Origin: Bacilli bacterium
GTDB lineage: Bacteria > Bacillota_I > Bacilli_A > RF39 > UBA660
Length of the DNA: 64,000 bases
Direction: 5' to 3'
Assembly (NCBI GenBank): GCA_017404385.1
Contig: JAFRCK010000014.1
Location: forward strand, 82,588-146,587
The notes under the pieces were generated by a model, which worked only from the letters and a program-made list of their open reading frames with translations, did no database searches and was not told the origin of the DNA. Positions 33,149-61,055 of this stretch are shown one piece after another. The position numbers and the translations under genes are program-made. Each line of letters starts with the position of its first letter. The first letter of the stretch is position 1.

Positions 33149-33180
33149 AAATAGGAATTATAAAATTCCTATTTTTTTAT
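33149..33180. terminator. Bidirectional terminator between ferredoxin and rluB
   Basis: AAATAGGAATT, short loop, AATTCCTATTT with T/A runs on both sides. Confidence 0.85.
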
Positions 33181-33885
33181 TAATGAATATAATACTTTTA
33201 TTTCTTTTATGGATAATTCTTTATACTTTCCAGATGCTAAATTACCTAATCTTAAAGAACCATAACCAGTTCTTTTTAATTTTAGAACATCTAAATTAAA
33301 ATGTTCAAACATTTTTCTAACCTCATGATTCTTACCTTCATGAATAGTTATTTCTATAAAACTAATATTTGAATTCTTATCAATAGATTTAACTCTTACT
33401 TTATCTGGTACACATTTATGTTTATCAATTACAATTCCTTTTTTTAATTCATCTAATTCATCTCTAGATAAAATACCATTTACTTTAGCTAAATAAATTT
33501 TTTGTATTCTATTACTAGGTTTCATCATAGCATTTGCAAATTCACCATCATTTGTTAATAATATTAAACCAGTTGTATCATAATCTAATCTACCTATTGG
33601 ATATATTCTAGTATCTATATCAAAATAATCAAGTACTGTTTTTCTACCTTTATCATCACTAGTAGTTGTAACAACTTCCCTTGGTTTATTAAACATAAAA
33701 TATCTTTTTTCTTGTTTAACAAGAATATCTTCACCTATTCTAATTTCATCACTAGAATTTACTTTTGAACCAAGTTCTGTTATCTTTTTACCATTAACAA
33801 AAACTTTTCCTTTAACAATTAATTCTTCTGCCTTTCTTCTAGAACAATATCCAAGATCGGCAATTGCCTTTTGTAATCTAATCAC
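33169..33885 (-). CDS. rluB: 23S rRNA pseudouridine synthase RluB-type
   Basis: A 238-residue enzyme that isomerises a uridine of 23S rRNA. An N-terminal S4 domain (RLQKAIADLGYCSRRKAEELI) is followed by the RsuA/RluB catalytic core with GRLDYDTTGLILLTNDG, where the Asp of RLDYDT is the catalytic residue. I use the GTG at 33885, six bases from GGGGTG. Typical length. Confidence 0.95.
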   Translation of the reverse strand: MIRLQKAIADLGYCSRRKAEELIVKGKVFVNGKKITELGSKVNSSDEIRIGEDILVKQEKRYFMFNKPREVVTTTSDDKGRKTVLDYFDIDTRIYPIGRLDYDTTGLILLTNDGEFANAMMKPSNRIQKIYLAKVNGILSRDELDELKKGIVIDKHKCVPDKVRVKSIDKNSNISFIEITIHEGKNHEVRKMFEHFNLDVLKLKRTGYGSLRLGNLASGKYKELSIKEIKVLYSLIKK

Positions 33886-33940
33886 ATAAATCACCCCAAA
33901 ATCTTAAATGAGTATATCATATTTAAATAAATTAATCAAA

Positions 33941-34639
33941 TTAAAAACCAAAGATTGTTTTTTTCTTATAATTCTTATCTATATATAAAGGTTCTCTATG
34001 TATCTCTTTATCATTAAATTTAACACTTATATAACCTAATTTATCTTCTTTTCTATCTATTATTGCTTCTGTACTAATATTTTTATATTCACCTTGTTTT
34101 AACAAATAATAATAGTTATTTTTCACATATACATTATTATATCCTTTTATCTTTAAATTTTTTTTATTAATAATTAAATACTTCTTATATGTATCAAAAC
34201 CATATTCATATAATCTTTTATGTGTATTAAAATCATCACTATCTACAAAAGTAACAGCAATTAAATTAACGTCAGATTTAGTTGCCGATGTAACTAATGT
34301 TCTTTTTGCCTTTTCAGTATAACCTGTTTTACCACCAGTAGCATATTTATATGAAAACAATAATTTATTCTTATTTGTCCAAGAATAATAATTTTTGTTA
34401 GTTTCTACATTTATTTTTTTAGTACTATCTATCTCTCTAAAATCATATAAATTATTTGCGTATTTCATAAGTAATGCCATATCATATACTGTAGAATAGT
34501 TTTCTTCACCTGATTCATCTAAGCCATGACTATTTTCAAAAACAGTATCTTTCATACCAATTTTTTTAGCCTTTATATTCATTTTTTTTATAAATGTATC
34601 ATGTCCACCTAAATAATTTTCAATTGCAATAGCAGCATC
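33941..34639 (-). pseudogene. dacA: D-Ala-D-Ala carboxypeptidase (dacA-type), 3' part, cut by element insertion
   Basis: About 233 C-terminal codons of a low-molecular-weight penicillin-binding protein: DAAIAIENYLGG, AKKIGMKDTVFENSHGLDE, the KTG box in YATGGKTGYTEKAKRTLV, and a C-terminal domain. The SxxK nucleophile region and the first half of SxN are missing: the codons before DAA are element sequence (CTHQ/SVHTR). The ORF appears to begin at 34708 inside the integrase gene with MCLIQKMTLLILINFCC, an accidental start. The missing N-terminal part is expected at the other end of the element beyond 64,000. A complete gene would make a membrane-linked peptidoglycan carboxypeptidase. Confidence 0.88.
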
Positions 34640-36305
34640 TCTGGTGTGTACAGAAAAGCAGCAAAAATTTATCAAAATTAAAAGTGTCATCTTTTGAATT
34701 AAACACATTTAGTTTTGCATGAAGAATAACCTTTTGATCTGTTTCATCATCTTTAATTGATTCTACTCTTATATCATCAAATATTAATTGAGCAATTTCT
34801 AAAACCTTTTCATCGTCAGAAAAAACTATATCATTTATTTTCTTTTTGAAATCATCAAAATTCTTTTCACTTGATTCTTGATTTTGTTCTTCTTCAATTA
34901 GTTTTCTTTTAGTTTCTTCTAACTTTTCTATTTGTGAGTCTAAATCATTTTTAAGAGTATTATATTCATTTAAGTCAATTTCTTTTCTCATTCTCATCAT
35001 TATTAATTCTTTTTTTTCATTATTAATTTTAAATGTTTTATCTTCTACTTGTTTTATTTCTTTCTTATAATCTTTTTTTGTTCTAATATCACTTATCATA
35101 TCATTTATTTCACTAATTAAATCATCTTGACAAGTAAGTATAAGTTTTAAGATTTTTTTACAAATTTCAACTAATTCTTCGTAATATATAACAGGAGAAT
35201 TGCACCCCTCAGTTTTTTTCTTTCCATGTATTCTATAATTATTACAAGCCCAAAACTTCCTTCTTCTACTTCTATCTCCCTTACCTATTTGATAAGTCCC
35301 TCTTACAAAAGTAGCACCATCATAATAACAATGCATTAATCCTGAAAAGGCAAATTTGTTATATTTATTATTCTTGTGTATTTGATCGTGTTTCTTACTC
35401 CTAGCATCAAGAATTTCATTTGCTTTATCCCAAAGCTCCTCTGATACAATAGGAGGACAAGTTTCATTATCTTTATATACTATCCACTCATCTCTTTTAA
35501 ATCTTTTTCTTTTTCTATCGTGGTAATCGACTGTTGTTTCTTTATGAGCACAAAAATAACCTTTATATTTTGGGTTTCTTATTATATTCTTTATAACTGT
35601 TCCTGCAATCGGTTTGCCAGAATAATTAGTAACACCATATTCATCAAATAATTTAAAACCTAATCTATGTACTCCTATATTTTCAGATACATAAGTTTCA
35701 AATATTAATCTAATAAATTTAGCCTGTTCTTCATCAATTACTAGCTTACCTTTATTTTTTGTATAACCATATATATTATTACTACCTGGCACAATTCCCT
35801 TTTCTACACTTCTTTTATATCCAAATCTAATTCTCTCTGATAGTTTTCTTATTTCCTCCTGTGCAATACTTGACATAATTGTAAGTCTTAATTCAGAGTC
35901 AGGTTGAAAAGTGTTGATATTATCACTTAAAAAATGAACACCAACACCATTTGAAAGTAATTCCTGTGTATATTTAATACTATCTAAAGTATTTCTTGAA
36001 AACCTTGATATTTCTTTTGTTAAAATTAAATCAAACTTTCTTTTTTTAGCATCATCTACCATTCGTAAAAAATCTTCTCTTTTTTTTACACTTGTACCAC
36101 TAATACCTTCATCTACATAACCATCTACAAAAGTCCAATTTTCTTGTTCTTTTATAAAATTACTAAAATATGTTACCTGATTTTCCAATGAATTTAATTG
36201 TTCATATCTATCGGTAGATACACGAGCATAAAATGTAACCCTTAATGGTAAATCATAAATACTTTTCCCTTGACCTAGCATATTTCTTATAGTATATAAA
36301 TCCAC
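34620..36305 (-). CDS. Large serine recombinase (integrase)
   Basis: The 561-residue enzyme integrates and excises the element. The resolvase domain contains TFYARVSTDRYEQLNSLENQ with catalytic Ser30 and ISRFSRNTLDSI. The recombinase domain and a zinc-ribbon region follow (the usual first CxxC is reduced to CYYD; later Cys are in FWACNNYRIHG and EGCNSP). A long coiled coil covers about residues 395-480. I start at GTG 36305, six bases from GGAGGTG. The final ten or so codons (THQRCCYCN) lie across the attachment junction, so the tail depends on the integration state. Confidence 0.95.
   Translation of the reverse strand: MDLYTIRNMLGQGKSIYDLPLRVTFYARVSTDRYEQLNSLENQVTYFSNFIKEQENWTFVDGYVDEGISGTSVKKREDFLRMVDDAKKRKFDLILTKEISRFSRNTLDSIKYTQELLSNGVGVHFLSDNINTFQPDSELRLTIMSSIAQEEIRKLSERIRFGYKRSVEKGIVPGSNNIYGYTKNKGKLVIDEEQAKFIRLIFETYVSENIGVHRLGFKLFDEYGVTNYSGKPIAGTVIKNIIRNPKYKGYFCAHKETTVDYHDRKRKRFKRDEWIVYKDNETCPPIVSEELWDKANEILDARSKKHDQIHKNNKYNKFAFSGLMHCYYDGATFVRGTYQIGKGDRSRRRKFWACNNYRIHGKKKTEGCNSPVIYYEELVEICKKILKLILTCQDDLISEINDMISDIRTKKDYKKEIKQVEDKTFKINNEKKELIMMRMRKEIDLNEYNTLKNDLDSQIEKLEETKRKLIEEEQNQESSEKNFDDFKKKINDIVFSDDEKVLEIAQLIFDDIRVESIKDDETDQKVILHAKLNVFNSKDDTFNFDKFLLLFCTHQRCCYCN
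34637..34652. other. Attachment-site junction (element/chromosome boundary)
   Basis: Conserved dacA coding sequence (Asp-Ala-Ala codons, GATGCTGC on minus, starting at 34639) meets the 3' end of the integrase gene here. The crossover dinucleotide must lie within or next to this stretch, but cannot be fixed without the other junction. Confidence 0.7.
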
Positions 36306-36329
36306 ATAAATCACCTCCATTTTCTATTT

Positions 36330-36536
36330 CTATATTCTTATATCAACTTTCATTGGATAAGAGTATTTATCCTTATCTTTTTCTAATTGTTCTTGTAATT
36401 TTAAAATCTTTTCATCACACTTTGAAATTAATACTTCATACTCACTAATAGTAATTTCGTTATTTTGATATAAATAATTTATTATCTTTTTTTGAACTTC
36501 TTTTTTTACTACTTCATAAGTAATATTATCGTTCAA
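36330..36536 (-). CDS. Small SHOCT-like protein upstream of the integrase
   Basis: A 68-residue protein, MNDNITYEVVKKEVQKKI then NNEITISEYEVLISKCDEKI, in which the second part looks like a short C-terminal (SHOCT) helix-pair often found in element-encoded proteins. The start is a TTG at 36536, seven bases after AGGAGGAG; the longer ORF upstream is in the terminator region and lacks a ribosome-binding site. It lies 24 bases before the integrase and is likely co-expressed; it could help control excision (inference). Confidence 0.6.
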   Translation of the reverse strand: MNDNITYEVVKKEVQKKIINYLYQNNEITISEYEVLISKCDEKILKLQEQLEKDKDKYSYPMKVDIRI

Positions 36537-36586
36537 AGTAATTCTCCTCCTGATTAAGTCTATTAATTGAGTAAGAAAAAAATTAA

Positions 36587-36622
36587 TAAAAAAGAGGAGA
36601 ATTATCCTACACAACTCTCCTC
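36587..36622 (-). terminator. Terminator or attenuator before the integrase operon
   Basis: GAGGAGA (36622-36616) pairs with TCTCCTC (36600-36594) followed by TTTTTT on minus. The first base of the stem overlaps the stop codon of a nine-codon ORF. Confidence 0.7.
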
Positions 36623-36650: not shown

Positions 36651-36708
36651 TGTGCAGATAAAAATTAATTATTCAACCTAGCACTACGAAGCATAACTAT
36701 TTATGTTT

Positions 36709-36742
36709 TTTTAGTAATGCCTAACATTACTATTTTTTTATT
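36709..36742 (+). terminator. Plus-strand terminator-like hairpin
   Basis: TAGTAATG CCTAA CATTACTA followed by seven T on plus. No plus-strand gene is seen before it; a small RNA is possible. The rest of 36,623-36,757 holds the inverted repeat described with the leader. Confidence 0.4.
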
Positions 36743-36757
36743 GTATGAAATCATATT

Positions 36758-37261
36758 TTAAACTTTCTGATTTTGAATTAAATGTGCAATATCAAAACCA
36801 CTTGTCTTTGTATCAAATGGTATCGATATGATGTTATTGGTAAAATATGTTTTGTTATCATATCTTATTATAACTTCACTAAACACATCTAATTTTTCGT
36901 TGTAATTCAATTTTTCAAATTGTGAATCAAGTTTTTTATCGTCTTTATCATAAACAATACCTAAAATATTGCCATTATCTTCATAAGCACTTTCATTAAT
37001 AGTTAATTTGTTATAAAGCATTGCAAAATATTGTAATAATAAAGTACAAGCATTTTTTGATAACCCAATAGTTTCTAGTGTAAATATTTCCATTTCATCA
37101 TTTTCAACTAAGTCTGGGTTTGCCTCGTTCTTATCATTTATTTGATTATTATTTAATAAGCCAAATGTATATATAAGAAACTTTAACTTTGTTAAATCTT
37201 CTTTCCCTTCTAATTCGTTTATTAATTTTTTTACATTTTCAGTAGTATCAGTAATATACAT
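36758..37261 (-). CDS. Element protein of unknown function
   Basis: A 167-residue acidic, soluble protein (MYITDTTENVKKLINELEGK, FTLETIGLSKNACTLLLQYF, FTNNIISIPFDTKTSGFDIA). No known family. Its GGAGGAAAG ribosome-binding site lies inside a 21-codon leader ORF that overlaps its start by 14 bases. The repeated element promoter lies 190 bases upstream, so it probably belongs to the regulated genes of the element. Confidence 0.6.
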   Translation of the reverse strand: MYITDTTENVKKLINELEGKEDLTKLKFLIYTFGLLNNNQINDKNEANPDLVENDEMEIFTLETIGLSKNACTLLLQYFAMLYNKLTINESAYEDNGNILGIVYDKDDKKLDSQFEKLNYNEKLDVFSEVIIRYDNKTYFTNNIISIPFDTKTSGFDIAHLIQNQKV

Positions 37262-37511: not shown

Positions 37512-40500
37512 TTATCTTTCCATTTCTTCTTCATTTTCTTGCTCGACACTTCTAGCATTTTCTTGTTTATCTAAATCAAGTTCACTATCTATTCGTGCCT
37601 TTTCTTTTTGAAGTTCCCTAATCCTATCTTGTTGTGTAAAAGGCTTGTCAAGTTCATCTTTTATATCAATAAGTTGCTTTTCATTATAAGCAATTTGTTC
37701 TTTAACGGTATTAATCTTATTCTCAAAACTTTTAAGCATATTTTCAATTTTGTAAATATTACCTATTTCATCTAAATTACTTATTTCAACTTTATACTTT
37801 CCAACACCTTTTACATATATAATAGGTTTAAACCATAATTCATCTTTTGTACCAACAATATCAAATCCACTTATTTGTCCTAGTACAGTTTCTTGTCCTG
37901 TTTTTAATAATGAAAAACTTTCATATAACTTTGTACTAGCATCTTTTCTTGAATCATATATCTTATCTCTAATCATTATCATAAACTTATCAGCAGATAA
38001 ATCTTTTACATTTTTAATATCTTCTTCAAGTCCACTCAAATATTGTCTTTGATATTTTAATTGTCTTGGTATTTCATTATTATATTTAGACTCAAGTTCT
38101 ATATGTGATTTATCATACCTACTTTTTGATAAATATAATTGTTTTAATTCGTTTTCAACTTTAAATTTTTCAAGTATTAATGGATTACCACTAGCAAGAG
38201 CTTTTACTTCGGCATAAGTCAAAGTATCTCTATCTAAATCTTCTGCTGTTCTTCCTCCACCATTACTATTAGCCATTATTTGATTTATGAAAGTTGATTT
38301 TGTTTGAATTAATTGATATGAATAAGCATCAAAACTACCTTCGGTAACATATCTATATATTTCAACTTCTTCATTTTGATTTCCCTGTCTTAATATTCTA
38401 CCTTCTCTTTGTTCAATATCAGATGGTCGCCATGGACAATCTAAATGGTGTAAAGCAATCAATTTATCTTGAACATTCATACCTGCTCCCATTTTTGAAG
38501 TTGATCCTATCAATATTCTTTTAGTGCCATTTCTCATATCTTCAAAAAGTTTTAATTTTTGTGGATTAGTTTTAGCATTATGAATAAATTCTATTTCTTC
38601 TTCTGGAACACCTTTTGCAATTAATTTATTTTTAATATCATCATAGACATTAAATGTCCCATCAGTTTTAGGTGTAGATAAATCACAAAAGACAAGTTGT
38701 GTTAACTTGTCCTCTTTGTTTTCTAACCAAATTCTATAAATATTTTCAACTGCCATATTTATTTTTGAATCAGGTAAGTCTGGCATATTTTCATCTACCA
38801 TTCGTAAATCAAGTGCTGCTTTTCTACCATCATTGGTAACCAAAAGCATATTATCAATTCTAGGATCACAACCATTTCTAATTGTTTCACTTCTTTCTGC
38901 TAATTTTTCTACATACTCTCCTAATTCAACACTTTTAGGTGCAACTATTGTTTTATAATCTCCACCTTTTAATTTAGGAACAGGAAGATTTAACATTTTA
39001 GATGTTTTAATATCTGCTACTTCTTTAAATAAAGTCATTAATTCAGGAATATTAAAGAATTGAGCAAATCTTGCTTTCGTTCTAAAACCACTACCATCAG
39101 GAGCAATTTCAAAACTATTAACTACTTCTCCAAAAGTTGATGCCCATTCATCAAAATGTTCTAGTCCCATTTCTCTTAATCTATCAAGTTGAAGATATTT
39201 TTGCATAGCAAATAATTCTCCCATTGAATTAGATATTGGAGTACCTGTTGCAAATACTGCTCCTTTTCCCCCATTGTTTTCTAATATATAACTTATCTTC
39301 ATAAATAAATCAGTTGCTTTTTTACTTTCACTATTATTAATACCTGCAACATTTCTTATTTTTGAAAACATTGGCAAGTTCTTAAACATATGTGCCTCAT
39401 CTACAATTAATTCATCTACTCCAAGTTCTTCAAATGTTACTACATCATCTTTTGGTGCATCTAACAATGTTTTTAATTTTGTTTCCATACTTGTTTTCAT
39501 TTGTTCAAGTTTCTTTACACTTAATCCATCATTAGTTTCTGCTTTAATTCTTTCAATAGCATTTACTACTTCATCTATTTGATTTTCCATGTGTCTAGTT
39601 TCATATTCCTTACTCATAGGAATTAAACCAAAACTTGAATGAGCAATTAAAACTGCATCCCATTCTCCTGTTGCTATTTTTCCCATTAGTTTTTTTCTTC
39701 TTGTTTTTTCAAAATCTTTTTGAGTTGCAACAAGTATATTTGCAGTAGGATATAATTTTAATATTTCATTTGCCCATTGTCCTAATAAATGATTAGGAAC
39801 AACAAACATTGGCTTACTAACTATACCTAATCTTTTTAATTCCATAGCACTTGCTATCATTTCATAAGTTTTTCCTGCACCTACTGCATGAGCAAGTAAA
39901 GCATTACCACCATATAAAACACGAGCAACTGCATTTTTTTGATGCTCTCTTAATTCTATATTTGGATTCATACCATCAAAAGTAAGATGACTACCATCAA
40001 ACTCTCTTTCTCTCATACAATTAAATTGTTCATTGTAAAGTTTCGTTAGTCGGTTTCTTCTTTCTTCATCTTTCCAAATCCATTCTTTAAATTCTTGCTT
40101 TATTAGTTCTTGCTTTTCTCTTGCATTTGCAGTTTCTATTGGATTAACAACTTTTCTATCATCTTCTAATGTATCGTAAACTGTTACACTTTGAAGATTT
40201 AAGGCATTTTTAATTAGTGATAAGGCATCTGCTCTTTCAGTTCCCCAAGTATTTGTATTCTTAACACCATAACCATATAAACCACTAGCTTGAAATAACC
40301 AAGTATTAACTTCTTTGGCATATTTTATTTTCAAACGACTTTGCGACCATCTAGGAATATCTAATAGTTCTGAGCAAAATTGATGGTATATATCTTCTGG
40401 TATCCAAGTTGATCCTAACTTAACACTAATCTCATCATATTCAAGTGGTATAGGTTGTACTCTTTCAAGTGCAGTAATATTCTTATCAAACTTATTATCT

Positions 40501-43500
40501 TCATTTACTGATTTAGCATAATTTAGTTTATGCTTTACATTACCACTTAAATATTCACTTGCTATTACCCAACCTTTATTAAAATCGTGTAATCTTTCAG
40601 GATCTTGATAAATTAAATTATCAAGTTCTTCAATTATTTCTTCTTCACTTTTCGGATATAATGTTTTCATATATTCAAAATCTACACAACCACGATTATT
40701 AAGTGAATACCTTAAAGCATCTTCGGCATTTTCTGCATTAGTTATTACTTTACTTTTTCTAATTGTTCTTTTTGTAAAAACATCTCCTTTTTCATATTTA
40801 GGTTTATCGTTTTCATCTTCATCTTCTTTACTAACTTTATTTTCAATAGAAGTTAATAGGTAATAATCTGGATCACTATCAAATGCTCTTGCATTGGCAC
40901 TATCATTTATATAACCATATCTTTTATAAAACTCATCATATTCTTTATTTAATATTGCTTGTGCATTTTCAAGTTCTATATCACTACCATCACGAAGTTG
41001 AACATTGAATACTTCTCTTAAAGCATCTTTTACTTTACATAGACCAATTATTCTTTTTGCAATCATACCTTCTTGAATACCATAAGGTACTAAACTAGAA
41101 AATGACCTTTGATAAATAATATCTTTACCATCTTTATTTATAATAGTAAAAGCATTATTCTTAATACTATCATCTGCATCTAAAATATCATAATTAGTAT
41201 CTTCACTTTGTATAAAAGCAGTTTTCTCATATATATTACTTGGCAAATTTTCTAATGCTTGATCTAATAATACATTTATATCTTCATCTATCGGAGATAA
41301 TGTATTGTCATAACCATAAGCAGTTGATTCAAGTTCCATTTTTCCAAGCATCATATTTGGATTATCAATATAATAATTATTTATATTTATTCCATCTTGA
41401 TATTCACTTGTATATATCCACTTTTCATCACTAACATCTAGTTTTAATTCATCTCTCTTTTTTAAGAAAATAATATCAGATGTTACACTAGCATTTGCAT
41501 TTCCTTTAAATGTATTATTTGGTAATCTGATTGCACCTAAAAACTCTGCTCTTTTTGCAATATACTCTCTTACTCGTGTATCTTTTTTATCTAATGTTCC
41601 ATCAGTAGTTATAAATGCTATTATTCCACCATCTCTAACTTTATCTAATGTTTTTTGAAAGAAATAATCGTGTATTAAGAACTTATCTTTATATCTTTTA
41701 TCAAATACTGTATTACTTCCAAAAGGAACATTACCAATAGCAACATCAAAGTATTCATCAGCAACTTTTGAATTTTCATAACCTGTTATTTCTATCTTTG
41801 CATTTGGATAAAGTTTTTTAGCAATTCTACCACTAATGCTATCTATTTCTACACCATACAATTTTGATTTATCAAATTCACTAGGTAATCTTCCAAAGAA
41901 ATTACCAATAGCACAACTTGGTTCTAATATATTTCCTTTTTCAAATCCAAATTGTTTTAATGCTTTATATATTTCATCTATTGCATTATTTGGTGTATAA
42001 AAAGAAGATAATGTGGAATGTGCAGCTGCTTTATATTCTTCATCATTTAAAAGTAGTTTTAATCTTTCTCTTTCATTTTTCCAATTATCTTTTCTTTCAT
42101 CAAAAGCATCAGCAATTCCTCCCCAACCTACATAACGAGATAAAATATCTTGTTCTTCCTTTGTGGCATTCCTATCTTCACTTTCTAACTCTTTTAATAA
42201 TTCTATTGCTTTTACATTATCTTCAAATCTTGATTTAGCACCAAAACTTGTATCCACTTTATCATCACTAATGTGATAATTAACTTTCGGATATTCTTCT
42301 TTTATTTCATCTCCATCACTATTATAAGAATGTTCTTCTATCACATTAGTTTCTATACCATCACGAGTTGGTATTATTTCGGCAGTTGTAACCTTATAAT
42401 CAATTTCATCATCTAGGGTAGCAGATACTTCATTATCTATTTGTTCTAACTCTTGATTATCAATTTCACTTTGATCTACCAATTTTGTACTTGGTATATT
42501 CATATCAAATTGTTTCTCATCAAAGTTATTCCAATAAATATGTATAAGATCAGGAGAAATATAAATAGAAAAGTCCTTATCTTTATATAATGATTGAATA
42601 AAAGCATTGTTCTTTATTCCCTCATTTAATTTTATTTCATCAGTTTTATCACTATTAAAATATGAGAAAGCATTATCACTCATATCAGCAATAGGACTAG
42701 ATAAAAGTATAGATAAATTTCTCTTATTTGATTTTATATGTTCCCATACTTGCAATTCAACATTACGAATTTCAAATGTATTTTGATATTTAGTATCAAA
42801 AGAGTTAAATATATCACATATCTTATTTGCAAGTTCTTCTTCTCGTGGAGCAAATAAACTCATTTGTTCTACACTATCTTTATTATCGGATATAGTTTCT
42901 TTAACTTCCTCAACTTGTGGTATTTCTTCTTTTTCTATTTCAGGAGTTTTATCTATTTTCTTTTTAAATGTATGCTCATATCTATTTATATAACCATCAT
43001 ATATCTTTTCTAATATTTCATTATCAAATGGTGTATTAACTTCTATACCAGATAGAAAGTTTTGCTTTTCTTCATTATCTAATAACTTATCATCTTTAAA
43101 TTGAAAAAGCACATTAGTTTGAATATAGTTTTGTATGTTTTCAAGACTTGTTGCTTTTTCCATAAAGTCATTATAAAGAATAGCAGTTTCTTTATTGGCA
43201 ATTTGCATACATTTTAAAATATCATCAGTATCAACTATTTCATCAAGTAGTTCATAGGAACTTGGGAGATTATATATATTAAAGTTAGCTTTTGCTAAAA
43301 AAAGTGAAGTCATTGTTTTAGCAACGAACTCCACTTCATCAGCAGACATAGTAATATAATTGTTCATTATTTGTTTTATAGACAACTCATAGAAAGTATC
43401 ATAGAAGTTTTCATATAAAGATTTGTTATCATCATTTGTAATACCTGCTTTATCTTGATAATACTCTAAGACAGAATTATCTACAAAATGATTATAATTC

Positions 43501-43814
43501 CATATCTTATAATCTTTTCCATAAGTTTGTTTTATATCAAAAACATATGCTTTCCAATTATTAAGAATAATAGGTATTCCTTTGCTTTTAGGTTTTATTC
43601 TTCTTCCTACTTCTTCACTATTCCACTCATCAAAAGTCATAAATGTTCTACCTGTATGATTATACATATATAGATTAAGAACATTATCCACACTATATTT
43701 ATCTAATATCTTTGACCAATAAATAATAAACTTATTCCAACTATTATTATCTAGTTGAATGTTTTTTAAACTTTCATCTCTTGTGGCAATATATTCTTCA
43801 AAAAAATTATCCAT
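37512..43814 (-). CDS. 2100-residue polyvalent protein: adenine methylase-like plus SNF2-type helicase
   Basis: This is a giant element protein. The first 550 residues are partly low complexity (the start, [20 protein letters not shown], is a small helical domain). A methylase domain follows at about 560-800 ([16 protein letters not shown] near 630, IGNVPFGS near 693 in the NPPF position). Helicase motifs come next: HAVGAGKT near 1308, DEAH near 1471, and [20 protein letters not shown] near 1800. A C-terminal coiled coil ends in EEEMER. Such proteins travel in conjugative elements and are thought to protect incoming DNA. They are described as polyvalent proteins. AAGAAGGTG precedes the ATG. 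Confidence 0.88.
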
Positions 43815-47422: not shown

Positions 47423-48787
47423 TTACTTGCTTTTTTCATCATAATTAAATAGCTTACTAAATTCCTGTGATGCTTTTTCCATTTCATAATTTATATTTTT
47501 TAATGCCTTTTCCATTTTGTGCTTACTAGGAAATTTAGTAATACTACTATTACCTTTAAAATAATTATCTAATACAAACCTTCTTCTTTGTTTATCAGTA
47601 AATTTATTCTTTCTATCATTTTGATAAGCAACTTCTTGAATTAAATCTTCTATTGAAATACTCTGCTTATCATATTTAGTTTTAACTATCATAGATATAT
47701 GATTATATTTATATAAAGAATGATTAACTATTGCATTATAAATATAATTATCAATATATTCCTCTTTCTTATCAACAATACTATTCTTGTTTATTTCAGC
47801 CACTACATTATTATTCTCATTTAATGTATCAAAATATTCATTCAATTTTTGCAAATCTTTACTAATATCTTTTCTACTTGCATATAGAATTGATGTTTCA
47901 TCATTAAATAAATATTTCTTAATCTTTTTAGTTAAAAACTTTATTTCACTTCCTAACTTATCATTTTTAATTGAATTATATTTTACTTTTTTTGAAGATT
48001 GATTATTTTTTTCTCTATATTGTTTTAATAACTCTCCTAGTTTTAAAATATCTTCTTCAACATAAATCTCATTAATATTTTTCAAAGTAAAGTTTCTTTC
48101 TTTTGGATTAAAATATGATTTTAAATAATCTATATCTTCATTAGTCTTTTTAAGTAGTGGTGTGTAATATTTTTCTCTTTGAATAGCAAGATCCACTAAC
48201 CTTTTTAAATATCTTTGTTCATCAAGACTAATCTTACCTTTTCTTCTATAATTAATATTTTTATCACAATAAGAATAATTAGGTCTCTTTTCAATAAAAG
48301 CAAAATGTATATGAGGTTGATGTTTTCTATTTGTATGAATTGAAAAAACATAACTCATATTTTTAATATCCTTAAAACCACAATGCTTTAAAAATTGTGG
48401 CATTATTTCTTTTGCCATCTTTTGTTCAAGAGTTTTTATATCTATGTTTTCATCAAGATATTCTCTCTTAAAACTTAAAATACCTTTCCATAAATTAGAG
48501 TTCTCAATATATTTTTTATAATCATTTTTAATTTTTACTATATCTTTTTTAGTAGCATAGTTTCCATTTTCTAAAATTAAATTATAATTTTCATCTCTTG
48601 TATGTCCCATATAATATTCAAACATACCAACAGTTTTTTTCTTTTCGTTAGAAAAGTAATCAACCATATCATCTACATCTTTTAATCTATCATTCTTATA
48701 ATTTGAAGAAGTATTTTTATTATCTCTACAATTTAATGCTAAACAATATTTACTTTTAAATACAACATTGGGACTTTTCTTACTCAT
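47423..48787 (-). CDS. mobL: Relaxase, MobP2/MobL family
   Basis: The relaxase nicks one strand at oriT and stays bound to its 5' end during transfer. The 454-residue protein has the N-terminal WKGILSFKREYL, the metal-binding three-His motif in FSIHTNRKHQPHIHFAFIEK (about residues 150-165) and NYRRKGKISLDEQRYLKRLV. The catalytic Tyr cannot be assigned by eye; candidates lie in the first 70 residues. Its start overlaps the RHH gene by eight bases. Together with the RHH and HTH genes it forms a relaxosome set next to the oriT candidate. Confidence 0.88.
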   Translation of the reverse strand: MSKKSPNVVFKSKYCLALNCRDNKNTSSNYKNDRLKDVDDMVDYFSNEKKKTVGMFEYYMGHTRDENYNLILENGNYATKKDIVKIKNDYKKYIENSNLWKGILSFKREYLDENIDIKTLEQKMAKEIMPQFLKHCGFKDIKNMSYVFSIHTNRKHQPHIHFAFIEKRPNYSYCDKNINYRRKGKISLDEQRYLKRLVDLAIQREKYYTPLLKKTNEDIDYLKSYFNPKERNFTLKNINEIYVEEDILKLGELLKQYREKNNQSSKKVKYNSIKNDKLGSEIKFLTKKIKKYLFNDETSILYASRKDISKDLQKLNEYFDTLNENNNVVAEINKNSIVDKKEEYIDNYIYNAIVNHSLYKYNHISMIVKTKYDKQSISIEDLIQEVAYQNDRKNKFTDKQRRRFVLDNYFKGNSSITKFPSKHKMEKALKNINYEMEKASQEFSKLFNYDEKSK

Positions 48788-50922: not shown

Positions 50923-51104
50923 TATTTATATTTATAGAAAAGAGAAGAATAATAATTCTCCCCTTTACCTATAATCTCCAACAATTTTTCTTTTGAAATT
51001 AAGTCTAACAAAAAATCCATAAATGATTCGTTAGGATCATCAAACTCATCAAAATATATTTTTTTGAATTTGTTTCTTAATTGCCTAACTGTTAATTGTT
51101 TCAT
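50922..51104 (-). CDS. Small element protein
   Basis: A 60-residue protein (MKQLTVRQLRNKFKKIYFDE, FDDPNESFMDFLLDLISKEK). Its ATG overlaps the stop of virB4 (ATGA) and its stop overlaps the hydrolase start, so it is clearly in the operon. Function unknown. Confidence 0.55.
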   Translation of the reverse strand: MKQLTVRQLRNKFKKIYFDEFDDPNESFMDFLLDLISKEKLLEIIGKGENYYSSLFYKYK

Positions 51105-53611
51105 ATTTTAAGTTCTTCCCCCATCAAGTCAACTTCAATAGGTGTTGCAAGTATCTTAACTCTAATTCTATTTTTTGAACTAATAGTGAGTAAGAACTCT
51201 CCCATTTCTGCTTGCATCAAAAATTCTTTTTGTGTATCAGTTAATGGGTTTTGATAAAACAATTTTAAGTATGTTGTTAAGTCATCTTCTTTTAACATAC
51301 CTACTAATTGATACTGACAATTATTAAATATTGCAGTAGCACTTCTAACACTATCATCATCTCCTAAAAAGTCATGTATTGATTGTGTTGCAGGAATAAA
51401 TGCTCCATGATATTTTCTAATCCTACGAGCAATTTGTTCAAAAGTTAATAGAACTTCACTATCAGTATTTTTTAAGTACAAGTGAAATTCATCAACCACT
51501 ACTGCTATATTTTTAATTCGTTTTTTATCTTTTACTTTATCATTTATAATCTTATTTCTTACAATAATATTATTTAAGTAAGTTAATAGATTTACTAATT
51601 GAGTTGTAATAATTCTTTTGTTTTTACTATACAATAAATCTTTTACATTAAATGCTATTAAGTTAGATTCAAGATTAACTGATGTATAACCATTAAATAA
51701 CATTGCATCAGTTCCTACTTTAAATCTATCTAATAATATTTCTAGTTTATCAACTATTTTTAATTGTTCTGGATTTGTTATCATATTACGATAATCAGGT
51801 AAGAAATCAATTAAATCCGAAAATATTGGATAATCAGTATTTTCTAATTTCTCTAAACTAGATATTTTAGTGTTTTTTGATATGCCAAATCTTTTATATA
51901 ATTTCTCTATCATATCTAGCATAACTACTACTTCACTCTCTTTAATTTCTTCAAAAGCACATTTAATAAATGTTTCAAGTGATCCAAGATGCTTTGCAAG
52001 TGGACAATCTTCATAGTTAATTGTATCTACATCATTGTCTTGTTGTTCCTCTTTATCACTTGGAAGAAATCTAACTTGTAATGGATTAATTATTCCACCA
52101 CTAGCAGAATACATATCAATATATTCCCCTTTATTTTTTCTAACTAGTTTTTCATATTCTCCCTCTGCATCAAACAAGAAACATTTATTACCACGATTAA
52201 TTTCATTGATAATCATTTTCTTTAAGGTAAAACTTTTACCTCCACCTGTTGAGGCAATAATTGCTAAATTGCTTGATGGTCTTGTTGCATCTTTATGAAA
52301 TATATCAAATATAGTAGGTAATGCAGTATGAATATCTGATCCTATCATATAACCTGTTTCATCATTAAAATGTGTAATTGTTAATGGGAATGATGCTGCA
52401 AGAGTTAAACTAGGAAGATAGTTGTGATAATCTTCAAAACTATTTTTAGTTATATCAAATGATTGCCAACCTTCTAGTTGCCTCATACGAGGTGTGTCTA
52501 ATTTAATATGAAAAACATCTGCTATCTTTTTAAGTTCTTTTATCTTTTCTTCTCGTTCTTTTTTACTACCATTTACAATGATAATAAAATCTACCTCTTT
52601 AATTTTTTCATCTCCGTTTTTAATTTGTGTCATAAGTGCTTGAAAGTTTTCTCTTTCAGTATCCATTTGTGTCGCATCACTTAATTTTCTTGTTGTAGTT
52701 CTTTCAGAGATTAAAAACTCATAATTACTATCCAATCTTCTAACTAATTCATCAGTAGGTATTGTATCTTTAATATGAATACAACCTCTTGTATTAGGAA
52801 CATTAAATAGTTCTTCAAAAAACAATTCATCAATAAATGGTGGTATTTTCTTTATTGTAACTACTTGTATTTCTTCATCATCTGCTTTTATATAACTCAT
52901 ATTTTCTTGAAAGAAAAATGGAGAGATTAATTCAATTAAATCACTCCACATTAATTGTTCTATACTAGCAGTAGATAGATAAAGATTTACAAGAAATTGA
53001 TAAACTTCCAACTTATTTGTTATTGTTTGAACATTGAGTCTAGGTGTCATATTATAGCAGTGCATTTTAACTTCTTCTGCAATATGTTCTAGTGCTTTAT
53101 CATTATCACTAACTAATACAAAATAATATCTACTTGTAGTAGTTAAGTTTTGTTCTTCCAATAACTCTAATCTATCATATCTTTCTTTTAAGAATTTAAC
53201 CTTTTCTTCATCATTAGAATATTCTTCCATTAGTTTTGTATAATAATCTTTATTTGCATTAAGATCTATCTTATCATCTAATTTGTATATTCTTAAATTT
53301 AAATCTTTTAATTGATATAGATATTTAAGTTGATGAAAGAAGTTATTTTTTTGAGTATTAGATGTTAAAGATAAGTCTATTGCATCTACTGAAAATACTC
53401 TTGCATAACTTCCATCACGAAGTTTGATAATACCATCTGCATTAACAAAATCAGTATTAGTAAAATTTTGAGCATTTTTGAACTTCTTTTTAAGAACTTT
53501 TTTAGTCATATATTTTTGTTTAAATTTATCTCTTTTCTTAACAAATTTTTCTATGAGTTTATGTTCTTTATTTTTTCTCTTTTCTTCTTTACTCATTTGT
53601 TGTTTCTTCAA
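51101..53611 (-). CDS. virB4: VirB4-type secretion ATPase (TraE/ConE-like)
   Basis: The 836-residue ATPase powers the type IV channel. Basic N terminus; a CagE/TrbE/VirB region across residues 60-420; Walker A ASTGGGKSFTLKKM near 455; Walker B IAVVVDEFHLYL near 704; and RIRKYHGAFIPATQSIHDFL after it. The start is the TTG at 53611, seven bases after GGAGTG, inside the end of the PrgI gene. Normal length for this group. Confidence 0.94.
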   Translation of the reverse strand: MKKQQMSKEEKRKNKEHKLIEKFVKKRDKFKQKYMTKKVLKKKFKNAQNFTNTDFVNADGIIKLRDGSYARVFSVDAIDLSLTSNTQKNNFFHQLKYLYQLKDLNLRIYKLDDKIDLNANKDYYTKLMEEYSNDEEKVKFLKERYDRLELLEEQNLTTTSRYYFVLVSDNDKALEHIAEEVKMHCYNMTPRLNVQTITNKLEVYQFLVNLYLSTASIEQLMWSDLIELISPFFFQENMSYIKADDEEIQVVTIKKIPPFIDELFFEELFNVPNTRGCIHIKDTIPTDELVRRLDSNYEFLISERTTTRKLSDATQMDTERENFQALMTQIKNGDEKIKEVDFIIIVNGSKKEREEKIKELKKIADVFHIKLDTPRMRQLEGWQSFDITKNSFEDYHNYLPSLTLAASFPLTITHFNDETGYMIGSDIHTALPTIFDIFHKDATRPSSNLAIIASTGGGKSFTLKKMIINEINRGNKCFLFDAEGEYEKLVRKNKGEYIDMYSASGGIINPLQVRFLPSDKEEQQDNDVDTINYEDCPLAKHLGSLETFIKCAFEEIKESEVVVMLDMIEKLYKRFGISKNTKISSLEKLENTDYPIFSDLIDFLPDYRNMITNPEQLKIVDKLEILLDRFKVGTDAMLFNGYTSVNLESNLIAFNVKDLLYSKNKRIITTQLVNLLTYLNNIIVRNKIINDKVKDKKRIKNIAVVVDEFHLYLKNTDSEVLLTFEQIARRIRKYHGAFIPATQSIHDFLGDDDSVRSATAIFNNCQYQLVGMLKEDDLTTYLKLFYQNPLTDTQKEFLMQAEMGEFLLTISSKNRIRVKILATPIEVDLMGEELKI

Positions 53612-56925: not shown

Positions 56926-57339
56926 TTATCTTTCCATTTCAGTATCGTTTTCTTTATTTGAAGTTAATTCTTGAACTTGACCATCAGAAGTATAAACTTT
57001 ATTGTTTTTTCTATCAGTGATTTCAAAACCTAAAATATCAATAGCTTTATCTTTATAAGTTTTTCCATCTCTTTCAATATCTTTTGAATAAGTAGAAATT
57101 CTACCTTTTACAGAAATCCAATCTCCTTTTTGAATTTCATTACCATAAGAGTTTACCAATTCTCCTCTTAATACAATAGGAACAAATTGTGTATTCCCAT
57201 TATTATTTTGTGCTAAATCAAATCTTAATGATTTTTTACCATTTTGATTTTCGTAAACATCATTAATGTTAGCAACATTTCCTTCTAATTCAAATGTATT
57301 TTTTGAATTTCTTACTTCTCTTTCAACTTCGTTATTCAT
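56926..57339 (-). CDS. ssb: Single-stranded DNA-binding protein
   Basis: A 137-residue OB-fold protein: FELEGNVANINDVYENQNGK, SLRFDLAQNNNGNTQFVPIV, YGNEIQKGDWISVKGRISTY and KAIDILGFEI follow the SSB pattern. The acidic tip needed for partner proteins in housekeeping SSB is replaced by ENDTEMER. Such element-borne SSBs coat transferred strands. Its ATG overlaps the stop of the preceding gene. Confidence 0.85.
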   Translation of the reverse strand: MNNEVEREVRNSKNTFELEGNVANINDVYENQNGKKSLRFDLAQNNNGNTQFVPIVLRGELVNSYGNEIQKGDWISVKGRISTYSKDIERDGKTYKDKAIDILGFEITDRKNNKVYTSDGQVQELTSNKENDTEMER

Positions 57340-57713
57340 CTTTCTTTCTCCTCCTTCTTTTTACTAAATCTATTAAAGATTTCTTTATACAAAGTTAAAT
57401 CTAATCCGTCCATACTTTCTATTTGACAATTGTTATCATCTAGGAATTTTAAAAACTCCATATTATAGACAGTATTTCTTGATAATTGTGCAATATCTTT
57501 TATTACAACTTTTGAATATTCTTTATTTTCAATATCATCCTTTAAATTATTTAATTCTTTTCTATCTAAATCTAAACGGCTTTTTACTTTATCAAAATAG
57601 ATAGTATAATCATAATTTTTCATAAGACAATAATCTGCAATTCGTTTTAAAAAAAAGTCTATTGACTTTCTATTTTGATTTTTAAAACTAGCATATACTG
57701 CGACCTTTTCCAT
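57336..57713 (-). CDS. Degenerate serine-resolvase-like protein
   Basis: A 125-residue protein matching only the catalytic-domain part of serine recombinases: VAVYASFKNQNRKSIDFFLK aligns with the YARVSTxxQ block and VVIKDIAQLSRNTVYNMEFL with the DRxSRN block. The expected catalytic Ser position reads Lys or Phe and the first Arg of the second block is Gln, so strand cleavage is unlikely. No DNA-binding domain. Coupled to ssb; may be a regulator or a remnant. Confidence 0.6.
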   Translation of the reverse strand: MEKVAVYASFKNQNRKSIDFFLKRIADYCLMKNYDYTIYFDKVKSRLDLDRKELNNLKDDIENKEYSKVVIKDIAQLSRNTVYNMEFLKFLDDNNCQIESMDGLDLTLYKEIFNRFSKKKEEKER

Positions 57714-57727
57714 AGTATCTATCCTTT

Positions 57728-58366
57728 CTAGTAGTTTTCATATCCTACCAATGTTGCAACATAAACAACTTGCTTATTAGTTCCACTAATACAAGTAATA
57801 AGTGTTATATCAGATATATTAGTTTGTTTTAATTCAGTTGTTCCTGTTTTTTCTATTTCGTATTTATTAGATACTTCATAGATATACTTGACACCTTTAT
57901 AATAAAAATATATTTTGTCTTTCATATCTATTTTTTTCAAATTTCTAAAAAATGAAATATAACTATTACCAGAATGAGCTGCTAAAATAATATGACTATT
58001 AATCTGCTCATCTGGTAAAGTTGTTTCTTTAAGTATATAAATATTTCTATTTACATTATTACTTGAACTATTTTTATCAAATAGTCCTCGTTTTAAATTA
58101 ATTTTAGGTATTTCTAAAACTGCCATATAATTAACTACTTCCTGTTTGATAGGTTGCTCTTGTTGTTCTTCTTCAACAACTTGTTCTTCATCTTCTATTT
58201 CAAAAAACTCCTCTATCATTTCCTTTTCAATATTATCTTGTTTTTTATTATCATAGTGGTTATACACCAAATATGAAATACCTAAAAAGAATAAAAAGAT
58301 ACCCAACAATATAATTAATGAGTATCTTTTATTTTTTCTTTGATTTTTTACTTTTTTTGATTCCAT
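57728..58366 (-). CDS. Sortase, probably dedicated to the element adhesin
   Basis: A 212-residue transpeptidase: membrane anchor (about residues 18-36), Glu-rich linker, then the sortase barrel with the catalytic His in LAAHSGNSYISFFRNL (about 125) and Cys in ITLITC (about 191). The usual Arg after the Cys strand is replaced by Lys-Gln in TNKQVVYVATL, which is unusual. The start ATG at 58366 overlaps the adhesin gene end. It would link the adjacent surface protein to the cell wall. Confidence 0.88.
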   Translation of the reverse strand: MESKKVKNQRKNKRYSLIILLGIFLFFLGISYLVYNHYDNKKQDNIEKEMIEEFFEIEDEEQVVEEEQQEQPIKQEVVNYMAVLEIPKINLKRGLFDKNSSSNNVNRNIYILKETTLPDEQINSHIILAAHSGNSYISFFRNLKKIDMKDKIYFYYKGVKYIYEVSNKYEIEKTGTTELKQTNISDITLITCISGTNKQVVYVATLVGYENY

Positions 58367-61055
58367 AAGCAACTACTCCTAGTCCTATTACTGTTACTCC
58401 AAACATAATAAAAGGTAAATAATCATTGTTTAAAGTATTAGGTACTTCTACTACTATTTTTTCATCTTTCATTGTACACTTAACTATTTCTCCATCTTCT
58501 AAAACTTCAAAATACATTTTTTCAGAATTCAATGTATAACCCTCTGGTGCTTCTTTTTCAATGAAATAGTATTTTCCATATCTTAATTCTTCAATAATAA
58601 TTTTTCCTTCTTCATTAGTTCTGCCACTATAAATAAGTTCATTAGTTTCAGCATTATATACTTCGATTAATGTGTTAGGTAGTGGCTCACTAGTTGAAAT
58701 ATCAATTTTAGTTATTTCTACAGTCGAAGTAATAGGTTTATTTTTCATTTCTGCTTTTACAATTTCTCCATTTTCTTTTAATTCAAAATAAACTTTTTCA
58801 TCAGTAATAACATAACCTGTTGATGCTTCTTTTTCCAAAATGTAATACTTACCTAATGTTAATTCATCAATGATAATTTTACCATCTTTATCAGTTTTAC
58901 CTGTAAAGATTAATTCATCATTTTCAGTATATATTTCTAAAATAGTATTAGGTATAACATCTCCATTAACAAGATCAGTCTTTGTTATTTCAACTTGTGC
59001 TTTTTTCAAAGCATTAGTCATTTCAAGAGAACTATAAACAATTGCTGTTCTATTATCAATTTCAGTTAATTCTATAAAATATTCAGTTTGATCAAGAACA
59101 TAATTTTCTTGCGTTTCAACTTCAACTACTTTATATTTTCCTAATGGTAATTTTTCACTTATTGCATAACCTTCGGCATTTGTTGTAATTGTACCAACTA
59201 AATCTCCTTCATTATAGTATAAATAATTACCATCAGATGATTTTATATCTTCATTAGCATAAATATTATATTTAATACCATCTAATAAAGTTCTTCCGTT
59301 ATAATTGAATGTTCCATCTTCAATAGTGAAAACTTCCCCATCTTTTATAACTTCAATTTGTCCTTTTATTGCAGTGTTTTTATAGTTTACAGTAACAAAA
59401 GGTCCATAAGTTGTATATGCATAATGAGTATTATCCCCAATAGTAAAATCTAAACCATCTTGATCTAACAAATACCCTTTTGGACTTGTTACTTCAACTA
59501 ATTTATAATTACCTGCACTTAATTTAAGATAAGTTATAAATTTACCATTCTCATCAGTTTTAAATTCACTATATACTTTACCACCTACATATTGTGATAC
59601 ATATTGATTAGTATCTTTATTTAATATTTTAAAAGTAGTATTTGCAAGTGCAATAGTTTGTCCTGTTTCAATATCAGTTTTAAATACTTGCAAATAAGCA
59701 GATAATGCATTATTTAAAATATTATAATATTGTTCTAATTCACTATCGTAATTAACTGTGATAAAGAAATCGTATATTTTTTCATAACCTGATGTTGAAT
59801 TTACTTGATGAAATTTCCAAACACCATAAGGTATATTTAAAGTAGCATAACCATTTTTATCAGTTGTAATCGTATCATATAAAGTTCCATTTGGATAATA
59901 TATTTCAAAAGTTATATTTTTTTCTGCATTTAAAAATGTAGTATTACCATCTACATATTCATATTGTTTTAAAATGCTTATATAGTTTTTTACAACATCT
60001 TCTCCAACATTTTTTGATACTTTTGCTACTCCTTTACTATCAAAATCATATTTAGTGTTATCTAAATAATAACCTTCACTTGCAGTAATTTCTTGTAAGT
60101 AATAACTACCATAAGATAATACTTCATTACTTCTTGCATAACCATTTTCATTAGTAGTTATTTTTGTTACTAATGTTCCATCGGTTTTATAAACTCCATA
60201 AACTGCACCACTTAATGTTGCTTGTCCCTGTGCAGTAGTAGTTTCATTATCACTCTTATTTATTTCAACACTTCCATAATAAGATTTTACTTGTATTCTT
60301 GCTATAACAGGATCTGTTCTACCAGATACAATCATATTTTGTATTCCATCTCCATAGAATATTTTAAAATTATCTTGGTATGGCATCTTCTTTGTCATAG
60401 TAAGAGTTATTGTTCCATTAGTTGTTGGAGTGATAGTTAAATTATTACCATTTACTGAATAACTTGCACCACTCACACTAATATCATAATTAGATAATAC
60501 ATTATTTGTATCAGTTAAAGTTATACTTTGACCAACCTGTAATGTATAACTTTGTGCATTAAAACTAGGTTTTGTGTAATGATTAGCAATTAATCTTTCT
60601 ATTTCATTTTTTTCAGCTGATATATCTAATGGAGTACCTGCACCATATCTTTCAGTAGAAAAATTAACAGTAGTATTATTTCCTAGAATTGTTGCCCATA
60701 TCATTCCTTGTGCTGCTGCACGATACTTTAATGTTTGATGGTTAGGATATGTATAACCATAATAAGCAAGTAGTGATACTCTTTCTCTTAACGAATCAGA
60801 TAATCCTGTGTTGCTCCAATTACCTTGTTGCATAGGTGTTCCTTCTGGAATACCTGGCTCAATACAATATGCTACTTCTCCATCAACATAATAGTTTTCT
60901 AATTTCCAAGAACTATAATTGTTTCCATTTTGATCATATCTTTCATACCAATAACCTGTCCAATCATAGTTTAGTGATGCAGCACTTACATTTTGTATTC
61001 CTACAATAGCAGTAAAAAATAATGCTATTATAAAAAATATTTTTTTAAAATTCAT
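58329..61055 (-). CDS. Surface adhesin: thioester domain plus SpaA/CnaB repeats, sortase substrate
   Basis: The 908-residue protein starts with a signal peptide (residues 1-26, ending NVSAAS). A thioester domain follows, with Cys64 in VAYCIEPGIP and Gln116 in RAAAQGMIWATIL, the pair that forms an internal thioester bond. Six SpaA/CnaB-like repeats run from about residue 260 to 860, each ending in a KYYLxExxxxxGY pattern. The last two are close duplicates (about 75 residues each). The wall signal is VPNTL instead of LPxTG, then a membrane helix and KKSKKSKKK. Likely binds a host or recipient surface and is attached by the neighbouring sortase. Ribosome-binding site GGGAGG. Confidence 0.92.
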   Translation of the reverse strand: MNFKKIFFIIALFFTAIVGIQNVSAASLNYDWTGYWYERYDQNGNNYSSWKLENYYVDGEVAYCIEPGIPEGTPMQQGNWSNTGLSDSLRERVSLLAYYGYTYPNHQTLKYRAAAQGMIWATILGNNTTVNFSTERYGAGTPLDISAEKNEIERLIANHYTKPSFNAQSYTLQVGQSITLTDTNNVLSNYDISVSGASYSVNGNNLTITPTTNGTITLTMTKKMPYQDNFKIFYGDGIQNMIVSGRTDPVIARIQVKSYYGSVEINKSDNETTTAQGQATLSGAVYGVYKTDGTLVTKITTNENGYARSNEVLSYGSYYLQEITASEGYYLDNTKYDFDSKGVAKVSKNVGEDVVKNYISILKQYEYVDGNTTFLNAEKNITFEIYYPNGTLYDTITTDKNGYATLNIPYGVWKFHQVNSTSGYEKIYDFFITVNYDSELEQYYNILNNALSAYLQVFKTDIETGQTIALANTTFKILNKDTNQYVSQYVGGKVYSEFKTDENGKFITYLKLSAGNYKLVEVTSPKGYLLDQDGLDFTIGDNTHYAYTTYGPFVTVNYKNTAIKGQIEVIKDGEVFTIEDGTFNYNGRTLLDGIKYNIYANEDIKSSDGNYLYYNEGDLVGTITTNAEGYAISEKLPLGKYKVVEVETQENYVLDQTEYFIELTEIDNRTAIVYSSLEMTNALKKAQVEITKTDLVNGDVIPNTILEIYTENDELIFTGKTDKDGKIIIDELTLGKYYILEKEASTGYVITDEKVYFELKENGEIVKAEMKNKPITSTVEITKIDISTSEPLPNTLIEVYNAETNELIYSGRTNEEGKIIIEELRYGKYYFIEKEAPEGYTLNSEKMYFEVLEDGEIVKCTMKDEKIVVEVPNTLNNDYLPFIMFGVTVIGLGVVAYGIKKSKKSKKK

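Follow-up and report, generated by a model that had tools for sequence, protein, structure and literature searches.

Why does the gene for a large serine integrase (LSR) in the genome of an uncultured member of the gut Bacilli read directly into a D-Ala-D-Ala carboxypeptidase gene that lacks its 5' part, and is the point at which the two meet a preferred target or an accident? The window analysed here is a stretch of 64,000 nucleotides (C38:82588-146587) from a 1.30-Mb draft metagenome genome of 43 contigs (G000). We consider it highly probable that an integrative conjugative element (ICE) was put by its LSR into a D,D-carboxypeptidase gene, most likely dacB, and that this integrase belongs to a clade specialised on the codon site. 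The features at the integrase-side junction are as follows.

33169..33894, minus strand: rluB-like pseudouridine synthase by appearance, a host neighbour also found downstream of the intact orthologue in relatives
33941..34639, minus strand: remnant of an interrupted S11 D-Ala-D-Ala carboxypeptidase gene (most likely dacB), comprising its 3' part from the Asp that follows SxN through to the stop
34638..34639, minus strand: inferred 2-bp core GA, positions 1-2 of the Asp codon, taken from 12 relatives, the window having attR only
34640..34661, minus strand: attR arm on the element side, CTGCTTTTCTGTACACACCAGA, which makes up one half of the attP dyad by comparison with relatives
34620..36320, minus strand: LSR with Resolvase, Recombinase and Zn_ribbon_recom domains

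On the minus strand, positions 34642 to 33944 read RDAAIAIENYLGG...GGKTGYTE..., and the remnant matches positions 106-235 of the 239 in the Pfam Peptidase_S11 profile (E 3.9e-34). Since intact orthologues of the same genus (G001, G006, G008, G009 and G011) read LRSGNDAA at the same place, host sequence starts at the GAT (Asp) at window position 34639; the AGA preceding it is non-host, hosts having AAT, and CTGTACACACCAGA, the bases ahead of GATGC in the window, is likewise non-host sequence. The integrase gene runs into dac, and its last codons and stop are host DNA. The orthologues bear out the original prediction that the remnant begins at Asp-Ala-Ala and that the residues preceding it derive from the element. 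The insertion had also been placed inside the SxN motif; site-specific integration at the SxN-Asp codons holds, but the break falls between Asn and Asp, the Asp codon holding the core, and not within S-x-N. Restoration of SxN at attR by the element's own bases was considered and rejected, S-V-N being read in L070 only.

The identical fusion recurs in diverged S11 genes of other genomes, which argues that the junction is more than chance. It was found at the same codon in loci L033-L035 of other metagenome-assembled genomes (integrases 90-91% identical), on one IMG/VR contig and in 16 loci with 55-61% identical integrases; in all, the base-exact fusion is seen in 20 loci besides that of the window. 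Relatives of the integrase insert here, and at other conserved codons in sporulation genes, throughout an entire bacterial family. Judged from these sequences, the integrases come back to one true target site, and the insertion is no accident. On an integrase tree of 51 rows, the integrases with this target (S11, SxN|D) form one group, clade A. Both junctions were seen in 12 related elements of 2.1 to 16.6 kb, in which the core common to the two junctions consists of just GA, bases 1-2 of the codon for the Asp after SxN, and the attR and attL element arms form a rough dyad around it. In-script joining of the flanks gave an open ..S-(G/A)-N-D-A.. frame in 12/12 of these relatives with both ends, the set covered by this test, the window itself having one junction. 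The 5.8-kb element of G042, inserted at the same place as in G150, has both ends on one contig, with ..AGTGGCAAT-GA-ACTGGCAC.. at the left junction and ..AACGCCAGG-GA-TGCAGTTG.. at the right. Where the integrases are 55-61% identical, 16 hosts were checked, and every one of them has both halves of a split S11 gene, each of them open; other S11 matches were found in 15 of these 16 (partial ones only in G335) and none in G085. The host genomes are small, at 0.8-1.8 Mb.

Cargo varies widely among clade A elements. That of a 5.8-kb element (L046:3851-7326) looks like an AAA (MoxR-type) ATPase and a VWA-like protein, with no conjugation genes. At L088:1807-7751, two consecutive elements lie in one dac gene, the first, at SxxK, being the end of an ICE whose integrase belongs to clade B, and the second a 3.4-kb element at SxN with a DUF4143-like ATPase by appearance, a small ORF and a frameshifted clade A integrase.

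In the window, the integrase matches PF00239, PF07508 and PF13408, all above cut-off, and contains a YARVS motif; with these three domains in one protein, and a 2-bp core and dyad attP (the core from the 12 relatives), it is predicted to be an LSR. Upstream of it, the element encodes the following.

36330..36614, minus strand: small ORF conserved in clade A, directly upstream of the integrase, candidate directionality factor, no Pfam match
36758..37261, minus strand: 167-aa ICE backbone ORF with a homologue in the L088 ICE
37512..43814, minus strand: 2100-aa SNF2-type helicase (Pfam), its end with 83% DNA identity to L088
43830..45803, minus strand: conjugative coupling protein, T4SS-DNA_transf (Pfam)
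47423..48787, minus strand: 454-aa protein without a Pfam match, a candidate relaxase from its position and appearance
51101..53611, minus strand: VirB4/TraG-like conjugation ATPase (Pfam)

The stretch from 34640 to the contig end also carries an M23 peptidase, a sortase and a SpaA-repeat protein. Integrase, coupling protein and VirB4-like ATPase lie in one element, which by its gene content is an ICE of at least 31.8 kb, running off the contig, with a relaxase that is putative from position and appearance. The small ORF was kept in 15/15 clade A elements examined, including one of 2.1 kb that has space for little else, and is perhaps a directionality factor. The integrase-proximal end of the ICE is 74-83% identical to that of the L088 ICE, whose integrase belongs to clade B, and integrase modules have therefore been swapped on a single backbone.

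G000 has three S11 genes, two of which are intact. The interrupted one is paralogue I (76% to G001), and the rluB-like gene lies downstream of it here and in the examined intact same-genus orthologues; we take rluB next to dacB to be part of the dacB neighbourhood. Downstream of paralogue I, L048 and L088 have Gate-domain proteins resembling SpmA (and, in L048, SpmB too), and in the window's genus spmA and spmB do not adjoin it. Paralogue II adjoins SpoVAC, SpoVAD, a SigF-like and a SpoIIAA-like protein, presumably the dacF neighbourhood. In B. subtilis, dacB, spmA and spmB form an operon (PMC8745062). Sporulation sigma factors control dacB and dacF, both of which shape the cortex; dacF is a forespore gene (PMC5376575). 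Because NCBIfam models do not separate dacA, dacB and dacF among these S11 genes, the gene was named by synteny, from which it is most likely dacB, a sporulation gene. The vegetative dacA identity originally proposed was dropped for dacB on the strength of the neighbourhood, rluB here and SpmA/SpmB-like proteins in relatives. The expectation of altered peptidoglycan trimming fell with it: with a gene that is most likely dacB and two other intact S11 genes, no vegetative change would be expected, and a phenotype in the spore cortex is more likely. Most relatives insert in dacF, and integrases about 90% identical target both paralogues (I in the window, L033 and L088; II in G150), which favours recognition of the codons that the two genes share. 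Spo0A was found in 27/28 hosts and SpoIVA in 26/28.

The SxxK-bearing 5' part of the gene had been expected at the far end of the element, beyond the window. It does lie there in the 12 relatives that show both junctions; in the window's own assembly it was not found, being absent from the window, from the 2,464 bp by which the contig extends beyond it and from the rest of the incomplete assembly. Searches by family, orthologue 5' half, attL pattern and upstream neighbour gave no far junction in this genome. The lipoprotein-like gene that precedes the 5' half in relatives is also absent from the assembly, so the stretch with the 5' half is probably missing or unbinned rather than moved. In L088, the second insertion removes the SxxK-bearing portion of the 5' part.

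The proposal that the integrase targets codons of an invariant catalytic motif gained support from related clades, whose cores likewise cover the first two bases of the codon for a conserved residue: the Asp that follows SxN, the Lys in SxxK or the Gln in TPxQ. Clade B targets S11 genes at SxxK; in five of its elements the core is AA, from the codon for the catalytic Lys. Clade C targets a class B PBP with a PASTA domain, adjoining an mraY lookalike, with the core CA of Gln in TPxQ, and clade E targets a class B PBP at SxxK, where the sequence shared in L149, ACTTTTAA, is consistent with the core AA of Lys; from the PASTA domain and the neighbours, this PBP may be spoVD-like. Clades B and E are sisters (SH-aLRT 91), and both make use of the S-T-x-K-I-x-T codons although their target genes belong to two different protein families, which suggests how targets switch. 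Clade D integrases target spoVS. Among unoccupied S11 genes, the AAT-GAT-GC bases were conserved as AAT in 14/14, GAT in 12/14 and GCN in 13/14, and no attB base preference beyond codon conservation was visible in these 14. The data, being comparisons of sequences, show targeting of conserved codons, as distinct from a constraint on host escape. They suggest a rule in which the core sits on those bases of a conserved codon that are least degenerate, whereby attB would be protected by protein function and the target would be stable across genera.

Some genes carry more than one insertion and some genomes more than one split gene. In L147 and L149, two elements lie in one class B PBP gene: one is of E type and sits at SxxK, and the other shows as a C-type left junction at TPxQ, where the PBP piece that follows the E-type element stops. 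The right ends of L103 and L104 carry clade D integrases (50-52% identical) inserted near the spoVS 3' end. In the window's own genome, where dac is split, spoIVA is split as well, by an 8-kb element with a 526-aa LSR (L150:1903-11530, G000:C12). At least four further genomes (G117, G211, G217 and G325) likewise have spoIVA in two pieces, split at that position.

In the mechanism that we propose, the S-x-N-D-A codons would serve as the attB that the LSR recombines with attP, and the GA of the Asp codon, read in relatives and presumed in the window, as the 2-bp core. The clade would be specialised on the SxN-Asp site in dacB and dacF, and related clades on other conserved sporulation-PBP codons. 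With conserved codons as its target, in a gene that growing cells can do without, one type of integrase could spread into many genera at a low cost to growth, and the split gene would be rebuilt by precise excision. Codon recognition, low growth cost, the role of the small ORF and excision are steps that we infer, and integrase activity is predicted from sequence.

That the junction is an assembly chimera joining the element to an unrelated dac fragment might be suspected in a draft metagenome genome of 43 contigs with one junction only, but the base-exact recurrence of that junction in independent assemblies refutes this, leaving it a negligible probability. Another reading would add a timed step to the integration proposed above, and hence does not exclude it: the element would be a sporulation gene-intervening element, excised in the mother cell by the integrase and a directionality factor to rebuild dacB. 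We hold this to be possible, if somewhat doubtful. Those targets that were identified for the related clades are, or look like, sporulation genes (dacB, dacF, spoVD-like and spoVS), another LSR splits spoIVA, and Spo0A and SpoIVA are retained in nearly all hosts. Both S11 halves are open in the 16 of 16 hosts; in G117 and G217 their dN/dS values are 0.03 and 0.12, with a common age of the insertions unproved. The small ORF persists throughout the clade A elements examined, even with little other room, and gin (PMC5595907) and SP-beta (PMC4191935) are precedents. On the other hand, sigma-E-type promoter signals upstream of the small ORF and integrase were no better than in shuffled sequences, the small-ORF starts being set roughly; excision in dacF, a forespore gene (PMC5376575), would be inherited, which counts against a general rule; and an ICE of more than 30 kb has its own reasons for excision. 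The precedents and the set of targets make it plausible that the element would leave during sporulation, as skin and gin do.

Timed excision stands opposite a permanent knock-out, in which sporulation is gone or on the way out in these lineages and the genes, as neutral landing sites, will decay. This would fit the small genomes (0.8-1.8 Mb) and the splitting of both dac and spoIVA in G000, but the halves remain open with their catalytic motifs and nearly all hosts keep Spo0A and SpoIVA, and we regard it as rather doubtful. Beyond the preferred reading of site-specific integration by a specialised clade, a broader one is put forward tentatively: in a family of small-genome gut Bacilli, serine integrases may have radiated in sporulation genes (dacB, dacF and spoVD-like, with other LSRs at spoVS and spoIVA), specialising on codons that are conserved and mostly belong to catalytic motifs, with the core fixed on codon positions 1-2, moving between protein families that share SxxK and splitting several genes at once, to be rebuilt by mother-cell excision.

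LSR groups with one conserved intragenic attB are already known, for example in genes for a Mg chelatase/ATP-dependent protease and a prolyl isomerase (Durrant et al., PMC10083194), and so are split sporulation genes (PMC5595907). Like those groups, the integrases here are diverse LSRs that use one conserved point in a coding sequence in many hosts; unlike them, they have other target genes, and several clades each place the core on positions 1-2 of a conserved-residue codon, often in a catalytic motif. The word 'carboxypeptidase' is absent from the main text of PMC10083194. The known intervening elements gin in gerE (PMC5595907), SP-beta in spsM (PMC4191935) and skin in sigK (PMC5025042) likewise split a sporulation gene by means of an LSR element with a restorable frame, and many elements here are, like gin, small and non-phage; the genes differ (dacB, dacF, spoVD-like, spoVS and spoIVA), the hosts span many genera and one member is an ICE. 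Among the open-access papers searched, we found none joining serine integrase, D-alanyl-D-alanine carboxypeptidase and attB, and none on a serine recombinase prophage integrated into an alanine carboxypeptidase. The set of targets and the regular placement of cores on conserved, mostly catalytic-motif codons across clades appear to be new with respect to those papers. Sporulation genes may be a common refuge for elements in this little-studied gut lineage, which bears on the prediction of spore formation from metagenome genomes, where split genes can be misread as lost. The att site pairs are directly testable.

ICEs with serine integrases of the Tn5397/TndX type occur in Firmicutes. In its general features, the window element resembles them in combining an LSR with a conjugation module and differs in its single codon-level site and in the exchange of integrase modules on a common backbone. 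Between integrase module and backbone lies an inverted repeat, AGTAATG..CATTACT with T/A runs (window 36690-36750), which resembles a bidirectional terminator and is a possible module border. Farther into the ICE, on the minus strand, are a 125-aa lookalike of the N-terminal half of a serine resolvase (57336-57713), which reads YASFKN.. for the usual YARVS and may be inactive or regulatory, and a sortase followed by a 908-aa surface protein with SpaA repeats and a thioester domain (57728-61055).
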